From Deltaproteobacteria bacterium (GTDB lineage Bacteria > Desulfobacterota > RBG-13-43-22), in contig JACRBX010000188.1 of NCBI GenBank assembly GCA_016219225.1, positions 1-43,746 on the forward strand: a DNA stretch of 43,746 bases, given 5' to 3'. Position numbers and translations under genes: made by a program. Positions within the stretch are counted from its first letter, which is position 1; every line of letters begins with the position of its first letter. This document shows positions 1,711 to 43,565 of the stretch, one piece after another. The notes beneath the pieces were generated by a model. The model was not told where the DNA came from. It ran no database searches and saw only the letters and a program-made list of their open reading frames with translations.

Positions 1711-3804
1711 TTAATGAATCGGAATGAATAAACTGAATTTAGAACCCTTCTCAAGGACACTTTCCACCCGAATTTGACAGCCAAGCAATTCCACCAATCT
1801 TCTGGTCAAAGCCAGTCCCAGTCCGGCGCCCCTGTGTTTTTTTGTTTCTGGGGATTCGAGTTGCACAAAATCCTTGAAGAGTTTCGGTAAATCCTCTTCT
1901 TTAATCCCGATACCCGTGTCTTCAATGCTGATTATGATTGTATCAAAATCAGCGGATTCGGAGAGTTCTTCACTTCGAACTCCGAATTCCGAACCCCGAA
2001 CGCATTTGGCCGTCAAGCGAACAGAACCCCCTTCCCGATTAAACTTCAGGGCATTACTTAAGAGATTCATCAGGATTTGTTTCAGTTTCATTTGATCGGT
2101 TTCGATGATCAGGTCCGCTTCGGGGGCTATTTCCAAATTCATGGAAATCCCTGCCTTGGTAGCCTTCTCTTTAAATAGTAGCCAGGATGAATACAAAAGA
2201 TCCTTTAATCGAAAATCGGTTTGAGAGAAATCGGTCTCTCCGGCTTCGAAACGGGAGATGTCCAGGACATTTTTGAGCAGTTCATAGAGATGATGCCCTC
2301 CCTTCAAAATATTTTGTAAATACACTTTTTGTTTTTCATTGAGTTTGCCGAAATATTCATCGACCAGGACCTCGGAAAAACCGATAACAGCATTCAGGGG
2401 CGTGGTCAGTTCATGACTCATGTTGGACAAAAAGTCGTCTTTGGCCTTGTTGGCGGTTTCGGCCTGGAGTTTGGCTTCTTCTTTCTCCATTAATTGTCTA
2501 TGGAGTTCTTCATTGAGTTTATGCAGGGTCTCCTGATTCTGTTTCCGTTCGGTAACATCATGGGCAAGGCCCAAAAAGAGTGTTTGCTGGTTGCTTTCTA
2601 TGGGAACGGATCGAAGTTCCACGGTTACGATCCGGCCATCTTTCCGGCAAAGGGTAAGTTCTTCCGCAGCCACACTTTCACCCTTCTGCCTCTTAGCTAA
2701 ACGGGAGGCGGCGTTTACCAACTCTCCGGGAGGTATCAGTGGTGTCTGAAGGATATTCGCCCCAATTACTTCCTCTCGTTTATAACCGGTCAGATCCTCG
2801 GCAGCCTTATTGGTGTTCACCAAAATCCCCTGGGAATCAATGAGGTAGTAGGGATCAGGGGCAGATTCAAAAAGCTGTTTAAAATGCTCCTCCGATCGTT
2901 TGACCTCCTCCATTTTGTGATAACGATCCAGGCTGATGGAAAGCATATCGCGGGCGGTATCCAGGGCATTCAGGGTATGCTCCGAAAGGGGATGCCGTGC
3001 GAATAAAATGATCACCCCGATCAGATCATCCTCCATAATCAAGGGATATCCGGCGCAAGAGGTTATCCCCGTTTCCCTGGCCCAGTCTTTATCCTGGATC
3101 CAAGGATCGTTTTGTAAATCATTGCTCAGATAAGGGCCTCCTTTCTGAGCGATACGACCGACCATAAATTCTCCGAGTGGTATTCGACTATAGCTCCCAT
3201 GGAGCCGGGTGTAAAGCCCGGCGCTGGCCTGGAGTTCCAACACCTGCTCCGCCTGGTTAAAGGTCCAGACCCTGGCAAAAACCCCTTCCAAATGTCGCAC
3301 CATGGCCTCAGGGAAATAGGTCAACACTTCTTTTAAGGATTCGGTCCGGGTCAGAACAAATCCTATTTCGGCGATAAAACCGGCCAGCCTCGTTCGCTCC
3401 GCCAATTCCTGTTTCATTTCCTTGTAATCGGTCACATCCACCCAGGTGCCGACATACCCTAACGAAGTCCCCCGGGAGTCAGGAATCAGGCGCAGATCAT
3501 CCCGCAACCAGCGATAAGATCCGTTCCGGTGAAGAAATCGGTATTCGAGAATAAGGCTACCCCTTTCGGAGAGACAAGAGAGTTCGCTTAGAACCAGAGG
3601 GATATCTTCCGGATGAAGGTGCTCAACCCAAAACCTGGAATTTTTGAGGAACTGTTGATGGTCATAGCCTAATTGTTCCTGAACATTTTTACTGACAAAA
3701 GTGACCACCCGATCTTCTCCGGCCTTACAGCAATAGATGACCGCCGGGCTTTTAAAAAGTCCATCTTCCAGTTTTTCTAACGACTTCTTCAAATCCCTAT
3801 CCAT
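1711..3804 (-). CDS. Soluble PAS-GAF-PAS sensor histidine kinase
   Basis: This 697-residue protein has no membrane segments. Domains in order: PAS (about 20-130), GAF (140-295), a second PAS (305-420), a coiled linker, a HisKA dimerisation domain with phospho-acceptor H464, and a HATPase_c domain (570-695) with N-box NLLSNALKF, G1 box DTGIGI and GAGLGLAL. The residue after MSHEL is T where the family usually has R. Residues 601-622, between two strands of the ATPase domain, are encoded by a heptad repeat array (1954-2001). It probably phosphorylates the HD-GYP regulator directly downstream; the receiver 3848-4222 is a second candidate. The sensed signal is unknown. Confidence 0.92.
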   Translation of the reverse strand: MDRDLKKSLEKLEDGLFKSPAVIYCCKAGEDRVVTFVSKNVQEQLGYDHQQFLKNSRFWVEHLHPEDIPLVLSELSCLSERGSLILEYRFLHRNGSYRWLRDDLRLIPDSRGTSLGYVGTWVDVTDYKEMKQELAERTRLAGFIAEIGFVLTRTESLKEVLTYFPEAMVRHLEGVFARVWTFNQAEQVLELQASAGLYTRLHGSYSRIPLGEFMVGRIAQKGGPYLSNDLQNDPWIQDKDWARETGITSCAGYPLIMEDDLIGVIILFARHPLSEHTLNALDTARDMLSISLDRYHKMEEVKRSEEHFKQLFESAPDPYYLIDSQGILVNTNKAAEDLTGYKREEVIGANILQTPLIPPGELVNAASRLAKRQKGESVAAEELTLCRKDGRIVTVELRSVPIESNQQTLFLGLAHDVTERKQNQETLHKLNEELHRQLMEKEEAKLQAETANKAKDDFLSNMSHELTTPLNAVIGFSEVLVDEYFGKLNEKQKVYLQNILKGGHHLYELLKNVLDISRFEAGETDFSQTDFRLKDLLYSSWLLFKEKATKAGISMNLEIAPEADLIIETDQMKLKQILMNLLSNALKFNREGGSVRLTAKCVRGSEFGVRSEELSESADFDTIIISIEDTGIGIKEEDLPKLFKDFVQLESPETKKHRGAGLGLALTRRLVELLGCQIRVESVLEKGSKFSLFIPIH
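1954..2001. repeat. Heptad array (word CGAAYYC) inside a histidine kinase gene, with inverted arm
   Basis: On the plus strand, 1976-2001 is a run of 7-bp units of form CGAANNC. The short opposite-orientation arm 1954-1968 can pair with 1976-1990 to form a hairpin with a 7-base loop. It encodes kinase residues around 601-622 and keeps the frame. Confidence 0.8.
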
Positions 3805-6281: not shown

Positions 6282-6539
6282 CTATCCATGGCTCCTTTTA
6301 ACAGGCATCCCATTATTAATAATCGGACATTGTTGGCAGCGCAATAACCCTTGATAAACGAAATAATTAAAAAGGTCTTCGGGTCTGGGGTTTTCAAATC
6401 TTTTCTTTTGGGCTGATTTTATCCGTTTAAGGCAGGCCCTTTTCGTTATTTTTAAATTCCCGGGTTGTAAAGGACAATCGATCAGTTTATCCCTGTTTGT
6501 CGAGTAATACTCCTTAATCAATTTTTCCAGACTGGCCAT
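6282..6539 (-). CDS. Small Cys-containing protein, possibly metal binding
   Basis: An 85-residue protein with three or more cysteines arranged as CPLQPG..ITKRAC and a C-terminal CQQCP. Similar paired-Cys layouts occur in small uncharacterised Desulfobacterota proteins and suggest zinc or another metal, but no named family is certain. It is the first gene of the minus-strand signalling cluster; the AT-rich region upstream (6600-6720) probably holds the promoter, though no convincing -35/-10 pair could be fixed. Confidence 0.6.
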   Translation of the reverse strand: MASLEKLIKEYYSTNRDKLIDCPLQPGNLKITKRACLKRIKSAQKKRFENPRPEDLFNYFVYQGLLRCQQCPIINNGMPVKRSHG

Positions 6540-6839
6540 AGAATTTCCCTCTTCTTAATTATTAAATGCGCCCTTCTCCATCCCAGGTGAAAAAGGGGAA
6601 TTTGTAAATCTTTAAATAGATTTAATTTAGCAAATCTTATGCCAGGGACCCTCAAATATAAATATTCAATTATTTAAGCAAGATACATTGAACAGGCGTT
6701 AAAATCAAACCTTCAGAATGCACAAAAAGCAAGTCATGTTGCACAATTTTTATTTTCGGGAATGTTTTTAATGGGGGTATTAAACTCATGCCCCTTGTGG
6801 GATGGCATGGAACATGGAAATTTAAATGTAGGAGGCGAC

Positions 6840-6950
6840 AGGCAATAGGCTATAGGCAATGGGCCAGGAGGTATGAGGGGGGTGCCACGAATCATGTAAA
6901 TGTTTTAAGGCGATGGGCTATGGGCAATAGGCGAAAGGCAAGGTACAAGG
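6840..6950. repeat. Heptad arrays of the AGGCAAT / TGGGCAA type
   Basis: Two arrays: 6840-6866 (units AGGCAAT, AGGCTAT) and 6907-6950 (six units of form NNGGCNA, then GGTACAA). Period is 7 throughout; the words drift from unit to unit. Confidence 0.85.
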
Positions 6951-6958
6951 TTTTCCCC

Positions 6959-6986
6959 TTGCAACTTGAAACTTGCATCTTGCAAC
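6959..6986. repeat. Heptad array of the TTGCAAC type
   Basis: Four units of form TTGNANC in exact 7-bp register. The preceding units ending in AAGG at 6950 are in the opposite sense, so the two arrays can partly pair across a short T/C-rich spacer. Confidence 0.85.
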
Positions 6987-6999
6987 TCTATTCTTTAAC

Positions 7000-7020
7000 T
7001 GACCCCCGACCCCTGAATAC
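7000..7020. repeat. Heptad array of the YGACCCC type
   Basis: Three 7-bp units of form YGANNCC/C. It is followed by the conserved flank TATTTTCGAACTAAGCACTCAT. Confidence 0.8.
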
Positions 7021-7086
7021 TATTTTCGAACTAAGCACTCATGCAGGCCTCAAGCCAGCACCACAAAAGATGAAAATAGGTTTTTC
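7021..7086. repeat. Conserved flank unit with hairpin, copy 1
   Basis: Begins TATTTTCGAACTAAGC, then CACTCAT, an imperfect stem (43-48 against 54-59), CACCAC, and the spacer AGATGAAAATAGGTTTTTC leading into the next array. It matches 7115-7176 in order and spacing. Confidence 0.8.
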
Positions 7087-7114
7087 CGAACCTTGAACCT
7101 TGAACCCTGAACCG
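7087..7114. repeat. Heptad array of the TGAACCY type
   Basis: Four exact-register 7-bp units of form YGAACCN, bounded on both sides by the conserved flank sequences. Confidence 0.9.
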
Positions 7115-7176
7115 TATTTTCCTATTAAGCGCTCATGCCCGGGTCGGGCACTACGAAGAATGAAAATGTCTTTCGC
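7115..7176. repeat. Conserved flank unit with hairpin, copy 2
   Basis: Begins TATTTTCCTATTAAGC, then GCTCAT, a perfect 5-bp stem with a 3-base loop (7137-7141 with 7145-7149, GCCCG/CGGGC), CACTAC, and the spacer GAATGAAAATGTCTTTC. The stem sequence differs from those at 28467 and 41938, but pairing is kept. Confidence 0.85.
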
Positions 7177-7210
7177 CGACCCCCGATCCCTGACCCCCGA
7201 TCCCTGAACG
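7177..7210. repeat. Heptad array of the YGAYCCC type
   Basis: Nearly five 7-bp units, alternating CGACCCC/CGATCCC and TGACCCC/CGATCCC, followed by TTATTTTCGTACTAAAG. It ends 11 bp before the panE stop codon. Confidence 0.9.
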
Positions 7211-7221
7211 TTATTTTCGTA

Positions 7222-8202
7222 CTAAAGACTTCCGGTGGTTTGGGAAATAAAAGAACCGTCCCAGACGCTCTGTCCATAGGATTCCTCAATGGTCTTAATC
7301 AAACAGGTCAGTACCCGGTTAATCGGAACCGGGATATGGTAAATCGCCCCCTCCTTCATAATCACACCGTTAATAAAATCGATTTCGGTCCTCTTTTGCT
7401 TTAAGACATCCTGGAGCATGGAGGAAACATTGGAACCGGTCAACCGGCAAACCTTTTTAACTTGTTCCAGGGGATCGGCATAGATGAATTCTATTCCCTT
7501 CTGCTTTCCGACCAAGAGTCCCTCCTGAACGGCCTCTTCCAGGATTATCCGGGTCCCAGGGAAATCAAGAAGTTTTCCATTCGGCAACCGGGTCAGGGCG
7601 GTCAGGGCGTTGATACCGACATTGATCAACAGTTTGCTCCAGATAAGGTTTTGAACCTTGGGCACCGACTTGGTCTTAAATCCGGCCTGGGTAAGCATCT
7701 CCTGGATCATTTTTAATAGAGAGTCGGAATCCGGTCCTCTATCCATTTCCGGGAAACCATAACCGATAAAGGTATCTCCCTGCCCGGCATGACGCACCTG
7801 ACCCGGTCCTAGATCAGTGGCCCCGTGAGAAGTAATGCCGGCCAGAATTTTTTCTTTTGGGAGATATTCTCCAAGGTGTTCTACGTTGCCCACACCATTC
7901 TGGAGAGTTAAGAAATAAGGCCCTGGATCGATGTCCTTTAGGGTCCGGGCCACGGTTCGCGTATCATAAGCCTTGACGCAGTTAATGATCAATTCCACCT
8001 GCGATAGTTCCAAAGGATTCAAAGTAACCGGAACCTTGACTTGAAAGGCTCCCCGGATACCTTCTACGCTTAGACCTTGCAGATTAATGACTTCGGCCCG
8101 TTCTTTTTCATGATCCAGAAGCAAAACCTCATTTCCGGCCCGGACCATATTCCCGGCCAGGAGGCAACCCATGGCCCCAGGGCCGACGATCCCGATTTTC
8201 AT
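7222..8202 (-). CDS. panE: 2-dehydropantoate 2-reductase (ketopantoate reductase)
   Basis: A 326-residue enzyme of normal length. It reduces ketopantoate to pantoate with NADPH, the second pantothenate/CoA-pathway step. The N-terminal Rossmann domain has the GPGAMGC nucleotide-binding loop (residues 7-13) and QNG at 101-103. The C-terminal helical domain has catalytic Lys190 in NLIWSKLLINVGINAL, with Asn194/Asn198 nearby and a Ser/Glu pair further on (TGSNVSSMLQD, KRTEID). It follows panB by 11 bp on the same strand, so the two catalyse consecutive steps from one operon. A repeat block starts right after its stop. Confidence 0.95.
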   Translation of the reverse strand: MKIGIVGPGAMGCLLAGNMVRAGNEVLLLDHEKERAEVINLQGLSVEGIRGAFQVKVPVTLNPLELSQVELIINCVKAYDTRTVARTLKDIDPGPYFLTLQNGVGNVEHLGEYLPKEKILAGITSHGATDLGPGQVRHAGQGDTFIGYGFPEMDRGPDSDSLLKMIQEMLTQAGFKTKSVPKVQNLIWSKLLINVGINALTALTRLPNGKLLDFPGTRIILEEAVQEGLLVGKQKGIEFIYADPLEQVKKVCRLTGSNVSSMLQDVLKQKRTEIDFINGVIMKEGAIYHIPVPINRVLTCLIKTIEESYGQSVWDGSFISQTTGSL

Positions 8203-13911: not shown

Positions 13912-13939
13912 GATTGCGGATTTCAGATTGCGGATTGTT
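13912..13939. repeat. Heptad array of the GATTGCG type
   Basis: Four 7-bp units (GATTGCG, GATTTCA and relatives) starting 3 bases after the TAA at 13907-13909. Confidence 0.8.
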
Positions 13940-13994
13940 ATCGGGTAGTGCATAAACACCCACACCGTAACATTTTAGATTTTTGAAAAATTAT

Positions 13995-14022
13995 TAGACA
14001 GGATTAACGGGATTTACATGTT
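13995..14022. repeat. Dispersed repeat (GACAGGATTAACGGGATTTAC)
   Basis: Inverse orientation relative of the sequence at 10768-10790. The rest of 13940-14155 holds no gene that I can support; it separates the converging pilT operon and the DUF1178 gene. Confidence 0.6.
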
Positions 14023-14155
14023 TTGCTCAGGTTCCATAGGATACTGAGCAACTTCCATCCTCCGTCGGAGGAAGAAAGATTTCTGTCCGCAGGATGATTT
14101 AGTTAAACTGATACCCCACTTCACTTGGTCCGGTATCATGCAGCGCCGAAGGTCT

Positions 14156-25647: not shown

Positions 25648-25675
25648 CACTTAATCCATTGCGTATTACGGGTTA

Positions 25676-25790
25676 TAAATTAGGACGCCGATTTTCGCCG
25701 ATACCCGCAGATAACTATATCTTTATCTTTATATTCAAAATCTTGGCAATCTGCGTCGATCTGAGTCCAAAAAGGAAATTCCTATACCAT
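25676..25790. repeat. Dispersed leader-like repeat, full copy
   Basis: Matches 16221-16325 with a short insertion (extra TATCTTTATC after the core). It starts 26 bp upstream of dxs, in the same orientation to the gene as the copies at 5901 and 16221. Confidence 0.9.
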
Positions 25791-25793
25791 CGA

Positions 25794-25814
25794 GTTACGG
25801 GTTACGGGTTACGG
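25794..25814. repeat. Heptad array of the GTTACGG type
   Basis: Three perfect 7-bp units, followed by GTTAAAA. A degenerate array in the opposite sense (words like AACCCGC, 25926-25953) lies 112 bp away. Confidence 0.9.
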
Positions 25815-25857
25815 GTTAAAAAATTTTCATTTCTTAATACCACAGCGACACTTTCCC

Positions 25858-25892
25858 CGTCATTCCCGAATGTCTTTATCGGGAATCCAGGG
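25858..25892. repeat. REP-like palindrome
   Basis: CGTCATTCCCGA pairs with TCGGGAATCCAG-type sequence: stem ATTCCCGA (25862-25869) with TCGGGAAT (25879-25886). It is the same family as the large palindrome at 36289-36368. Confidence 0.75.
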
Positions 25893-25963
25893 TTTTCAAA
25901 AAAATACACTGTAGTCTTAACCGCAAACCTGTATCCGGCAACCCGCAACAACCAGTCTTTTAT

Positions 25964-28449: not shown

Positions 28450-28454
28450 ATATA

Positions 28455-28590
28455 TTAAACACTCATGACCCATCGGGTCACCACTAAGCAAGAAAAAGGA
28501 TTCAAGGGGTCCAGGGGCCAAGGGTTCAAGTGAAAGGCATGGAATTTAAAACCCCTCGAACCCTGGAATCCTATTTTAGTACTAAATATT
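28455..28590. mobile_element. Heptad element with conserved flanks and inverted arms upstream of xseA
   Basis: One end is TTAAACACTCAT with perfect stem GACCC-ATC-GGGTC (28467-28479) and ACCACTAAG. The left array (28498-28532, words like AGGGGTC, CAAGGGT) is met by a right arm in opposite sense (28551-28571, ACCCCTC, GAACCCT, GGAATCC) so the two can pair. The far end is CTATTTTAGTACTAAA. Order and spacing match the units at 7000-7210, with a longer core. Confidence 0.75.
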
Positions 28591-29226: not shown

Positions 29227-31268
29227 AGATGGCAATGAACACTATGGGTGGGGCTGGAACTGTTTGGGGCTGGATAATCCGTCCGGCATTTCGGCCCGGC
29301 TTCCGTACAACGGGGATGAAAATGACAGCCGGCCGGAGGGTTGACCGGTGAAGGCAGGTCTCCCTGAAGCCGGATTACCTCCCGTTTCGTATCCCGATCG
29401 ATTACCGGCACCGCCGAGAGGAGGGCCCGGGTATAAGGATGCCTTGGATTGCCCAGGACTTCGTCAACCTTCCCTTGTTCGACAATCCGGCCCAGGTACA
29501 TAACCGCCACTTCGTGGGCCAGAAACTCAACCACGGAGATATTGTGCGTGATAAAGAGATAAGAGAGGCCGTGTCCGTCCTGGAGTTCCTTGAGCAGGTT
29601 GAGGATTTGGGCCTGGACAGAAATATCCAGGGCGCTGGTGGGTTCGTCGCAGACAATCAACTTTGGATTTACGGAAAGGGCCCTGGCGATAGCGATGCGC
29701 TGGCGCTGCCCTCCGGAAAATTCATGGGGATAGCGGTAATGGATCCCGGCCGGCAACCCGACTTCTTCCAGAAGGTGGCCTATGCGGGCCATCCGGTCCT
29801 CGGTTCCGGAGCCGATGCCCAGGGCCGCCATACCCTCCTCGATGATTTCCATAATCCGCATGCGGGGATTGAGAGACCCGTAAGGGTCCTGGAAGATAAT
29901 CTGCAACTCGCGACGCAAGGGCCGCATCCCGGCCGGTTTCAAGGTCCTGAGATCGATCCCCTGAAAGAGGATAGTGCCGCTGGTCACCGGAATGAGCCGA
30001 AGGACGCCCTTACCCAGCGTGGTCTTGCCACAGCCGGATTCTCCGACCAGGGCCAGAGTTTTGCCTGGGGGGATCGAAAAGGATACCCCGTCTACGGCCT
30101 TGACCTGTCCAACGGTTCGCTTCAAAAACCCCTTTTGGATAGGGAAATGGATCTTTAAATCCGCGACCTTCAGGATAAACGAACCATTATCCTGTCCGGG
30201 AATCAGCTCCCCTCTCGTGCCTTGTGCCTCATCCCTCGCACCTCTTTCCTCCCCCTCGTCTCGTGCCTCGTGCCTCATGCCTCGCGCCTCATCCCTCGTG
30301 CCTTTTTCATACAGATGACAGCGCACCCCCTGCCCTTCGGACCATTCGGACCACAAAGGGGCTTCCTTTCGGCAACGATCCCAGGCGAAATCACACCGTT
30401 CAGCATAACGGCACCCATTGAACTCACGGGTCAGGGGGGGCACATTCCCCCTGATCACGGCCAGGGACCGGTCCCGCTTGGTCCGGGCCGGTAGAGAGGC
30501 AAAAAGCTTTTGGGAATAAGGGTGGGCCGGGCCGGAAAAAAAGCGCTGGCGATCGGCCTTTTCCACTATTTCCCCGGCATACATCACCGCCACCCGGTGG
30601 GCCATCTCCGAGACCACCCCCAGATCGTGGGTAATGAGCAGGATGGACATGGCGGCCCTCTTTTGAAACCCCTGTAACAAATCGAGGATCTGGGCCTGGG
30701 TGGTAACATCCAGAGCGGTGGTGGGCTCATCGGCGATCAAGAGGTCCGGGTCACAGGCCAGGGCCATGGCGATCATCACCCGCTGTTTCATGCCTCCGGA
30801 AAACTGGAAGGGGTATTCCTTACTGCGCCGGGTCGCCTCGGGGATGCCCACGGCCTCGAGCAATTCCTTCACCCGGCCGGCGGCCGTCTCCCCCCGTAGG
30901 GCCGTGTGTTGCTGGAGCATTTCGGCCACCTGATTCCCGATGGTCATCACCGGATTCAGACTCAGCATCGGTTCCTGGAAGATCATGCCGATCCGTTTCC
31001 CCCGGATAGTACGCATCTCCGTTTCCGGCAAGGTCAAAAGATCGAACCCGTCAAGCCGGATAGTGCCGCCGACAATCCGGCCGGCCTCCGGCAACAGGCG
31101 CATGATGGAAAGGGCCGTCATGGATTTTCCGCAACCCGATTCTCCTAACAAAGCGAAGGTCTCCCCGCGTCTGATGTCAAGTGACAGATCGTCCACGGCC
31201 CGCACAATCCCGCCGGCCGTAACGATCCAGGATCTGAGATGATCGATTGCGAGCAAGGGCCTGTTCAC
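29211..31268 (-). CDS. Double ABC ATPase of a peptide/microcin C-type transporter (YejF-like)
   Basis: A 685-residue fusion of two OppD/OppF-type nucleotide-binding domains. The first has Walker A GESGCGKS (42-49), signature FSGGMKQRV and Walker [13 protein letters not shown]; the second has GESGCGKTT, signature FSGGQRQRI and [12 protein letters not shown]. Each is followed by the oligopeptide-transporter C-terminal Cys-containing tail. The linker residues 322-353 are encoded by a heptad array with a visible 7-residue period (RDEARGM-like). It powers the transporter and overlaps the upstream permease by 4 bp (ATGA). Confidence 0.92.
30214..30303. repeat. Heptad array of the CGTGCCT type inside the ABC ATPase linker
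   Basis: About twelve 7-bp units of form CNNNCCT from 30216 to 30303, with one 4-base slip around 30258-30261. All run in one sense. It is translated in frame as a charged, Arg/Glu-rich linker. Confidence 0.9.
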
Positions 31269-32740: not shown

Positions 32741-32994
32741 TAGAATCCAGAATTCAGGAGCCAGGAGCCAGAATTGAAACCCTTTACCATATTCGCAACG
32801 ATGGAAATGGCGGCTCTTCTTAACTGTGATATCAATTCATATATTTCATTCCTGAGAAATAATTCAGTGTATCGGAAAACTACTAAAACAAATGGTTGGG
32901 CTTTCTGCCAGACAGTTAAATCTCTAAAATTTATTAACGGTTGTCTTTTCATTCTGGATTCTGACTCCTGAATTCTGGATTCTTGAATCATCAT
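32740..32994 (-). pseudogene. Truncated four-helix-bundle protein, 23S rRNA intervening-sequence protein (IVP) family
   Basis: An 84-codon frame (ATG 32994; ATG 32952 is an alternative preceded by AGGAG inside a heptad unit). The core INFRDLTVWQKA..EIYELISQLRRAAISIVANM matches the N-terminal half of the IVP family, which is normally about 115-125 residues. Helices 3 and 4 are missing. Both ends of the frame are encoded by heptad repeats: IQES-type N-terminus and NSGSWLLNSGF C-terminus. The stop shares bases with the next ATG. The family is related in fold to Avd of diversity-generating retroelements. Probably an inactive remnant. Confidence 0.75.
32742..32988. mobile_element. Inverted heptad arms flanking a truncated IVP gene (candidate non-autonomous element)
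   Basis: Left arm 32742-32776 (AGAATCC, AGAATTC, AGGAGCC) and right arm 32951-32988 (ATTCTGG, CTCCTGA, ATTCTGG) are near reverse complements, about 30 bp each. They bracket 174 bp that contains only the IVP fragment. The whole lies between the stop of one permease and the start of the next, where such operons normally have a gap of a few bases. No clear target duplication was found. Confidence 0.7.
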
Positions 32995-32998
32995 TTTT

Positions 32999-36159: not shown

Positions 36160-36228
36160 AATGGTTTATTGTTTTCCTTCGGATTCTGTGATAATAAAAA
36201 AAGGTTCAAGGTTAGAAAATGTCTTTCC

Positions 36229-36249
36229 TTTGAGCTTTGAGCTTTCGTA
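36229..36249. repeat. Heptad array of the TTTGAGC type, first
   Basis: Two perfect TTTGAGC units and a third degenerate one, preceded by GAAAATGTCTTTC and followed by CAGTTTAGCGCT, both conserved flanks. Confidence 0.75.
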
Positions 36250-36288
36250 TCAGTTTAGCGCTTTTTGAAAAAACGTCGACAACCTCTC

Positions 36289-36368
36289 CGTCATTCCGGT
36301 GAAAACCGGAAACCAGGTTCTTTTCGTCTCAGCATAACGTCTGGATTCCGGTTTTCACCGGAATGACG
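36289..36368. repeat. REP-like palindrome pair
   Basis: Arms 36289-36316 and 36341-36368 are reverse complements with one mismatch around a 24-base loop. Each arm is itself palindromic (CCGGTGAAAACCGG). It resembles REP/BIME-type repeats such as CGTCATTCC..GGAATCCAG known in many bacteria. Confidence 0.85.
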
Positions 36369-36429
36369 TGTGCGAAAGTCAGGATTTTCAAGTAAAAGTT
36401 TCAAGTTTTTCATAGGGCTAAATTGTTAC

Positions 36430-36450
36430 GAGCTTTCAGCTTTGAGCTAC
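36430..36450. repeat. Heptad array of the GAGCTTT type, second
   Basis: Three units (GAGCTTT, CAGCTTT, GAGCTAC), followed by TAAAATAATATTTTCGG, the conserved end of an element, which runs to within about 10 bp of the trmJ start. Confidence 0.75.
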
Positions 36451-36476
36451 TAAAATAATATTTTCGGTTATCAAAA

Positions 36477-37322
36477 ATGGTTCCTGACATCAACTTCGAC
36501 CATATCACCATCGTCCTGCACCAACCCCGTTTTGCGGAAAATATAGGGGCCTCGGCCCGGGCTGCCTGGAATATGGGCTTCCCGCATATCATCTTAGTCA
36601 ATCCGGAAGATACAGACTGGGAACGGATGACCAAGCTTTCAACCCATGTGGCCCGGGGGCTTCTGGAAAAAATGCAAAGCTATTCCTCTCTGGCCGAGGC
36701 CCTGGCACCTTTCCACTATATTGTTGGAACAACGGCCCGTTTAGGAGGGCAGCGGAAAGAAATTATAAACCCTGCCCAGGCAGCCCGTAAAATTCAATCC
36801 CTTGGCGGTCAGAACCGTATTGCCCTCTTATTCGGCCCGGAAAACCGTGGACTCAGCAACGAAGAACTCCGCTTTTGCCATTGCACGGTCAATATCCCTA
36901 CGGCTTCGGCCAGCTCTCTCAATCTGGCGCAGGGTGTTTTGATCCTTTGTTATGAAATCCTTCTGGCCCATAGTGATGAAAAAGTTCGGAGTGTTGAGTT
37001 CGGAGTTCGGAGTGATCAAACCCTAAACCTTGAAATCTCGTCATCCATCACTCCCAACTCCGAACTCCGAACTCCGAACTCCGAACATCCCCTGGCCACA
37101 TCCTTCGAACTGGAGGGCATGTATCAGCACCTGTCGGAAGTCCTGCAGTTGATGGATTTTTTAGACGAACAGAACCCCGAACTCTGGATGATGAGCCTCA
37201 GGCGTTTTTTTTCCCGCATAGGGCTCTATCCTCAGGAGGTGCGCATGATCCGCGGTATCTGCCGCCAACTCAGATGGCTGGTCACCGGCCATCTAAAATC
37301 GAACACAAGGATTGAAAGGTAA
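36477..37322 (+). CDS. trmJ: TrmJ-family tRNA (cytidine/uridine-2'-O) methyltransferase
   Basis: A 281-residue SPOUT-class enzyme; TrmJ methylates the ribose at position 32 of tRNAs. Seen: RFAENIGASARAAWNMGF, LLFGPENRGLSNEEL (knot) and IPTASASSLNLAQGVLI, all in residues 1-160. Residues ~205-281 are the C-terminal helical extension. The linker ~170-204 is encoded by an inverted heptad array (36984-37086) and gives the peptide VEFGVRS...TPNSELRTPNSE. The protein otherwise has normal length and motifs, so it is probably active. mutM follows 3 bases later. Confidence 0.93.
   Translation: MVPDINFDHITIVLHQPRFAENIGASARAAWNMGFPHIILVNPEDTDWERMTKLSTHVARGLLEKMQSYSSLAEALAPFHYIVGTTARLGGQRKEIINPAQAARKIQSLGGQNRIALLFGPENRGLSNEELRFCHCTVNIPTASASSLNLAQGVLILCYEILLAHSDEKVRSVEFGVRSDQTLNLEISSSITPNSELRTPNSEHPLATSFELEGMYQHLSEVLQLMDFLDEQNPELWMMSLRRFFSRIGLYPQEVRMIRGICRQLRWLVTGHLKSNTRIER
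36984..37086. mobile_element. Inverted heptad element inserted in trmJ linker (words GTTCGGA / CTCCGAA)
   Basis: Left arm 36984-37018 (GTTCGGA units) and right arm 37047-37086 (CTCCGAA units, four exact in a row) are reverse complements over about 30 bp with a ~28-base centre. The frame is open right through it. Confidence 0.85.
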
Positions 37323-43484: not shown

Positions 43485-43488
43485 AAAC

Positions 43489-43565
43489 AGGTCCAAGGTT
43501 TAAGGTGTAAGGTATTCGGCCCCAAAAGGCCTTGCACCTTGCACCTTGGACCATGGACCTATTAT
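43489..43565. mobile_element. Inverted heptad arms between trpB2 and the next gene
   Basis: Left arm 43489-43516 (AGGTCCA, AGGTTTA, AGGTGTA) and right arm 43531-43558 (CTTGCAC, CTTGGAC, CATGGAC) are near reverse complements around a short centre (CGGCCCCAAAAGGC). CTATTATTTTC follows, as at other loci. It starts 4 bp after the trpB2 stop. Confidence 0.8.

Follow-up and report, generated by a model that had tools for sequence, protein, structure and literature searches.

Dispersed arrays of seven-base-pair units with changing words in an uncultured deltaproteobacterial lineage

Tandem arrays of 7-bp units, built from many different words, are scattered through the genome of an uncultured deltaproteobacterium, and with a probability of about one half they are dispersed heptamer-array cassettes that resemble the STRRs of cyanobacteria, are copied as wholes, and keep their period through a 7-nt step. 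Such a cassette would comprise approximately 3-14 degenerate 7-bp units, often arranged as two facing arrays capable of forming a long hairpin from one strand, the 5' arm of which would be rich in purines and G. The arrays are described here for a stretch of 43,746 nucleotides (hereafter the window), for larger samples of the same genome (5.93 Mb in 353 contigs), and for related genomes.

The block at 6840-7210 has a histidine-kinase region on one side and, on the other, a ketopantoate reductase gene that ends there; it carries five arrays, each recovered by TRF and by a lag-7 scan (arrays and pairs are given without strand unless one is stated). The first (6840-6866) is composed of AGGCAAT/AGGCTAT and the second (6908-6934) of GGCGATG/GGCTATG, which belongs to the same word family in the same orientation. 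The third (6955-6987; CTTGCAA/CTTGAAA/CTTGCAT) has near-copies in the stretches L039 and L048. The fourth (7085-7116; CCTTGAA, reported by TRF as GAACCTT) is flanked by two copies of a dispersed hairpin element, H (TATTTTC...GAAAATA), located at 7021-7078 (+ strand, 56.3 bits) and 7115-7168 (+ strand, 67 bits), and the fifth (7176-7207) is built on GACCCCCGATCCCT, a double unit of 14 bp. TRF by itself delimits the five at 6840-6864, 6909-6934, 6958-6987, 7088-7113, and 7178-7207. An earlier, sequence-only reading had claimed five such arrays within 370 bp, and this count was confirmed: the lag scan of the block returned five arrays at lag 7 and none at lags 4-6 or 8-13, while 2000 Markov-1 shuffles of the block gave a mean of 0.009 lag-7 arrays and a maximum of 1. 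The folded part of the block had a z of -1.2 with no facing-pair fold, and across 6300-7400, both copies of H included, Rfam returned no match at E-values up to 1.

Nineteen lag-7 arrays are present in the whole window, against 1-5 at other lags that are not multiples of 7. Outside the block, TRF located ACTCCGA at 1972-2001 (inside the histidine-kinase ORF 1711-3804), GATTGCG at 13912-13937, GTTACGG at 25789-25821 (25794-25818 in TRF), and GAGCTTT at 36224-36248 (CTTTGAG at 36228-36245 in TRF). A facing pair, CAGGAGCCAG ... ATTCTGGATTCTG, occupies 32748-32989 (pair scan and synteny), and another, AAGGTGT...CCTTGCA, forms a long hairpin at 43489-43560 (TRF; fold z = -5.7). TRF gave a period of 7, or of 14 as twice 7, at every locus that the sequence-only reading had named, the minimum score being set at 30 and several of these loci scoring below 50. 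The period of those arrays is thus real, with the correction that two of them sit inside real genes. One, CTCGTGC at 30214-30303 on the minus strand, is an in-frame linker joining two ABC-transporter ATPase domains (TRF and gene calls); it encodes an Arg/Glu-rich repeat linker (GTRDEARG...), and linkers of similar composition are seen in relatives. The other is a facing pair, AGTTCGG...ACTCCGA, at 36983-37086 (+ strand; fold z = -8.1) within the open SpoU-methylase gene 36477-37322, its ACTCCGA arm lying at 37050-37086 by TRF.

The excess at 7 extends beyond the window. In a 527-kb sample of contigs picked by number from the 5.9-Mb genome, together with the window, the lag scan found 125 arrays at lag 7, 71 at 14, and 32 at 21, the rise at 14 and 21 being as expected, and 3-18 arrays at each of the other lags that are not multiples of 7. 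TRF returned 57 arrays of period 7 and 19 of period 14 from the 527-kb sample, compared with 0 and 2 from Markov-3 sequence; this comparison, with the block shuffles, rules out a chance origin. A genome-wide period distribution with no excess at 7 had been set beforehand as grounds for refutation, and the excess is present in this sample. Most of the lag-7 arrays (105 of 125, or 84%) fall outside predicted genes, and coding DNA is poor in them, the gene boundaries being approximate because the gene calls rest on a simple hexamer model. Array density per kb is 2.02 in spaces between co-directional genes, 1.3 in convergent spaces, and lowest, 0.81, in divergent spaces; the low density between divergent genes argues against a promoter role. 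Between co-directional genes, the arrays are commoner toward the end of the upstream gene.

Although the period is fixed and the words vary, the words are not as unrelated as the sequence-only reading supposed, and form a family of families that is only partly unrelated. In a 0.9-Mb sample, about 20 of the 61 loci of which were chosen for CTTGAAC-type arrays so that this word is over-counted, 105 words cover approximately 298 intergenic arrays, and some words recur 10-20 times; 240 arrays have a word in common with another array, against 77 expected for random words. Searched through the whole genome with up to three mismatches, (CTTGAAC)3 has 218 matches and its reversed control 10. Avoidance of stop codons in the words was slight when counted by array and within noise when counted by distinct word. 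The distinct words also fit a degenerate consensus, NHYYYGN, with a score of 4.32 against 3.54 ± 0.08 for letter-shuffled words. This fit would be expected if a DNA- or RNA-binding factor counted 7-bp units and the words were variants of its degenerate target, an explanation to which the fixed unit length and the recurrence of arrays at syntenic sites also lend weight. However, the consensus is weak, the words scored are distinct but related and therefore not independent samples, and the score is only marginal for the words of relatives (4.16 against 3.85 ± 0.13). With the sparseness of arrays between divergent genes, and with no candidate binding protein having been found, the earlier proposal of a factor that measures seven bases is not upheld, and we regard it as improbable. 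Even so, the shared consensus could be a sign of selection for a sequence signal, and to that extent counts against the cassettes.

Neighboring arrays tend to face one another. Among 98 pairs of neighbors no more than 200 bp apart, 28 are inverted and 4 are direct copies (20 against 1 under a stricter score), and in the four relatives of the same family the corresponding figures are 14 and 1; in 70 of the 98, no facing pair is recognizable. The 5' arm is purine-rich in 26 of 31 pairs in the genome itself and in 13 of 14 in the relatives, and is mostly G-rich as well. For several facing pairs, the predicted fold is much more stable than that of their shuffles (z of -3.6 to -8.1, with DNA parameters). 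Hairpins of this kind could act in transcripts, in mRNA stability, termination, or translational coupling, with the pairing rather than the word being what matters; such roles have been suggested for cyanobacterial STRRs (PMC2670836), and the preference of arrays for co-directional spaces, on the side of the upstream gene, agrees with them. Against this stand the many arrays that have no facing partner, the lack of enrichment in convergent spaces, and the nature of the mismatches between arms, which, when oriented by co-directional genes, number 27 of the G-U type and 31 of the A-C type, so that selection for RNA wobble pairs is unsupported. A role as RNA hairpins is accordingly given a low probability, on a par with that of the binding factor.

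What dispersed arrays have in common goes beyond the word. When the 191 arrays that reach 28 bp were compared, a 28-base stretch with no more than two differences was shared by 90 pairs; when units were permuted within arrays, eight permutations gave a mean of 13 sharing pairs and a maximum of 19. Past the array edge, identity of the flanks drops from about 0.5 to the background level, approximately 0.28, over some 15 bp, and the shared stretch is thus the array itself. With unit order shared and similarity ending near the edge, whole arrays appear to have been copied. This bears on the simplest alternative, in which each array arose from a local chance duplication and grew by independent slippage, with a 7-nt step set by the contact length of the polymerase. 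Slippage accounts for the fixed period, the many words, and the relative rarity of arrays in coding DNA, and heptanucleotide repeats are reported to be the most abundant class of long units in most genomes (PMC4679880; PMC4692102). It does not predict the facing inverted pairs, the shared unit order, or the strong recurrence of words, nor does it predict that most of the families sampled in the phylum lack the peak, although these samples are small. The contention of the sequence-only reading that slippage is insufficient therefore holds for independent slippage alone, on the grounds of shared unit order, facing inverted pairs, and patchy distribution; we consider such slippage unlikely, if the strongest of the rivals.

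Comparison with relatives extends the constancy of the period, and the change of word, to syntenic sites in different species. Two members of the same genus (G001 and G002) and one of the same family (G004) were compared; at about 75% identity, single events are beyond reconstruction. The relatives named by DNA similarity (72-75%) are two Deltaproteobacteria MAGs, RBG_13_43_22 and NC_groundwater_1539. Where the genome carries GTTACGG (space 25651-25963), all three relatives have period-7 arrays of other words in the corresponding space, and in the space 36160-36476 the word GAGCTTT is matched in G001 and G002 by arrays of an ATTCTGA family. A single word family is found in all three species (the genome itself, G001, and G002) at 32741-32998, while the AAGGTGT...CCTTGCA family at 43485-43545 is shared with G002 and was undetected in G001 and G004. 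In ten co-occupied syntenic comparisons, the word family was the same in three and different in seven. Syntenic spaces are jointly occupied only moderately more often than expected by chance (odds ratio 4.1, p = 0.03; when long spaces are taken, p = 0.08). The SpoU-methylase linker provides a case within a gene: it holds the AGTTCGG pair in the genome itself, an ATTGCGG pair in G001, and in G002 a shorter linker with no arrays, and the reading frame is open in all three (281, 299, and 259 aa, respectively). Where present, the arms of this linker, the one candidate insertion, are inverted and their words vary, and the flanks are too diverged for a target duplication to be read.

Element H (TATTTTCGAACTAARCCCTCATGCCC..GGGCACCACGAAGCATGAAAATA, approximately 55 bp) has at least 134 matches in its own genome and is present in all five family genomes; with three matches in one other member of the phylum, it is nearly confined to the family. 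A 19-mer of H, CACCACGAAGCATGAAAAT, occurs in 98 stretches (L137-L216) from MAGs of several phyla (Chloroflexi, Acidobacteria, Ca. Acetocimmeria, Brocadia), and on these sequence matches part of H may be distributed far more widely than the family. Of all 7-mers, the ends of H, TATTTTC/GAAAATA, show the strongest enrichment next to arrays (37 against 4.8 expected), but only 13-19% of intergenic arrays have a detected H within 30-50 bp, compared with 8-9% for random intergenic positions. As most arrays are away from any detected H, the element is ruled out as the carrier of all arrays. Nor is H a proven RNA structure, since RNAalifold on a MAFFT alignment gave no pairs and covariation was slight. 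Other dispersed repeats were also observed, namely a repeat of about 130 bp at 13966-14099 of the window (more than 30 matches among those listed in G002, few in other relatives), one of about 100 bp at 18544-18647 of L026 (approximately 83-92% identical at more than 35 places in G002), and one around CCGTCATTCCCGAATG...GGGAATCCAGG at 25835-25904 of the window, which recurs many times in G002; a weak match to H lies at 28451-28498 of the window.

The lag-7 peak is present in all four family relatives (15-21 arrays per 100 kb). In the wider phylum, sampled at 2-54 kb per genome, its distribution is patchy, with G014 and G020 strongly positive and most other genomes showing no peak, and MAGs of other groups also hold heptamer arrays of multiple words (e.g., BS750m-G18, with nine in 13 kb). 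Both the excess of heptamers and the idea of a 7-nt polymerase contact have been published (Mrazek, 2007, as cited in PMC4679880 and PMC4692102), and several families of heptamer repeats have been described. Cyanobacterial STRRs usually have 7-bp units, are intergenic and in some cases hairpin-capable, and are of unknown function (PMC2670836); in Nostoc, different heptamer words are dispersed in one genome, including csR1.1 (TTGTCAG), csR1.2 (TTGTTAG), and csR4 (ATTGCGA) (PMC2408588). The present arrays resemble them in their tandem, degenerate 7-bp units and in their several dispersed, mainly intergenic words, and words of the ATTGCG type occur in both (PMC2408588), but the host here belongs to an uncultured deltaproteobacterial lineage. 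In Beggiatoaceae, TAACTGA forms dispersed intergenic direct repeats that are patchy across bacteria (PMC4679880); that is a single word near start codons, whereas here there are many. The GGGAATC repeats of Xanthomonas are about 90% intergenic, form 70-75 convergent pairs per genome, and occupy the same site between species in 83% of cases (PMC4692102). They share with the present arrays the period, the intergenic bias, and the inverted pairs, but consist of one G-tract word at mostly conserved sites, in contrast to dozens of words here, few of them with G-tracts, that often differ between species. On the strength of these likenesses, the arrays could be G-quadruplex elements, as proposed for the Xanthomonas repeats and the GGGGA(C/T)T repeats of Nostoc; however, only 59 of 295 words (20%) have a run of GGG or CCC in each unit, and the survival of the period where G-tracts are absent removes quadruplexes as a general cause here, leaving that explanation largely refuted and extremely unlikely. 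REP/BIME palindromes and MITEs are likewise dispersed, intergenic, and hairpin-forming, but the arms here are tandem heptamer arrays of changing sequence, and no target duplication could be read in the diverged flanks of the one candidate insertion. REP elements with a RAYT differ further, as copies of the Y1 transposase (PF01797) do not track the presence of arrays; the domain is also found in the array-poor genomes G010, G013, G017, and G023, and is rejected as the driver. A limited search of the open-access literature turned up no report of words being exchanged while the period stays fixed, of unit order shared between arrays, or of arrays present or exchanged within genes.

In the preferred reading, that of copied cassettes, whole arrays would enter tolerant sites such as intergenic spaces and protein linkers as copies, or would take the place of arrays already there, through recombination or through template switching at hairpins; switching between the arms would keep them complementary. 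The most speculative step is that copying or repair in some lineages would prefer a 7-nt step, so that the period stays while the words drift. Neither a target-site duplication nor a mobilizing enzyme was identified, so movement of the arrays is deduced from their distribution. The reading is also weakened by the 70 neighbors in which no facing pair is recognizable, by the lack of such a fold in the folded part of the block, by the divergence of the relatives, and by the modest co-occupancy of syntenic spaces. The copying of cassettes fits best, but gives no reason for 7 over 6 or 8; a step set by the polymerase or repair machinery, or a binding factor, is a possible source of the seven. A bolder version, in which lineage-specific machinery copies or synthesizes DNA in 7-nt steps and rewrites words in place while keeping period and hairpin, would amount to a new form of repeat homogenization in bacteria, and is doubtful, slightly more so than the factor or RNA explanations. 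Taken as a whole, the arrays probably play a selfish or neutral part instead of acting as a sequence-specific signal.

The arrays are a many-word form of known heptamer repeats in another lineage, often with different words at syntenic sites. An excess of heptamers was recognized in some bacteria by 2007 at the latest, with the mechanism missing. This lineage offers many words, relatives that carry other words at the same sites, and a case within a gene, and together these make slippage, copying, and the binding of a factor separable through sister strains.
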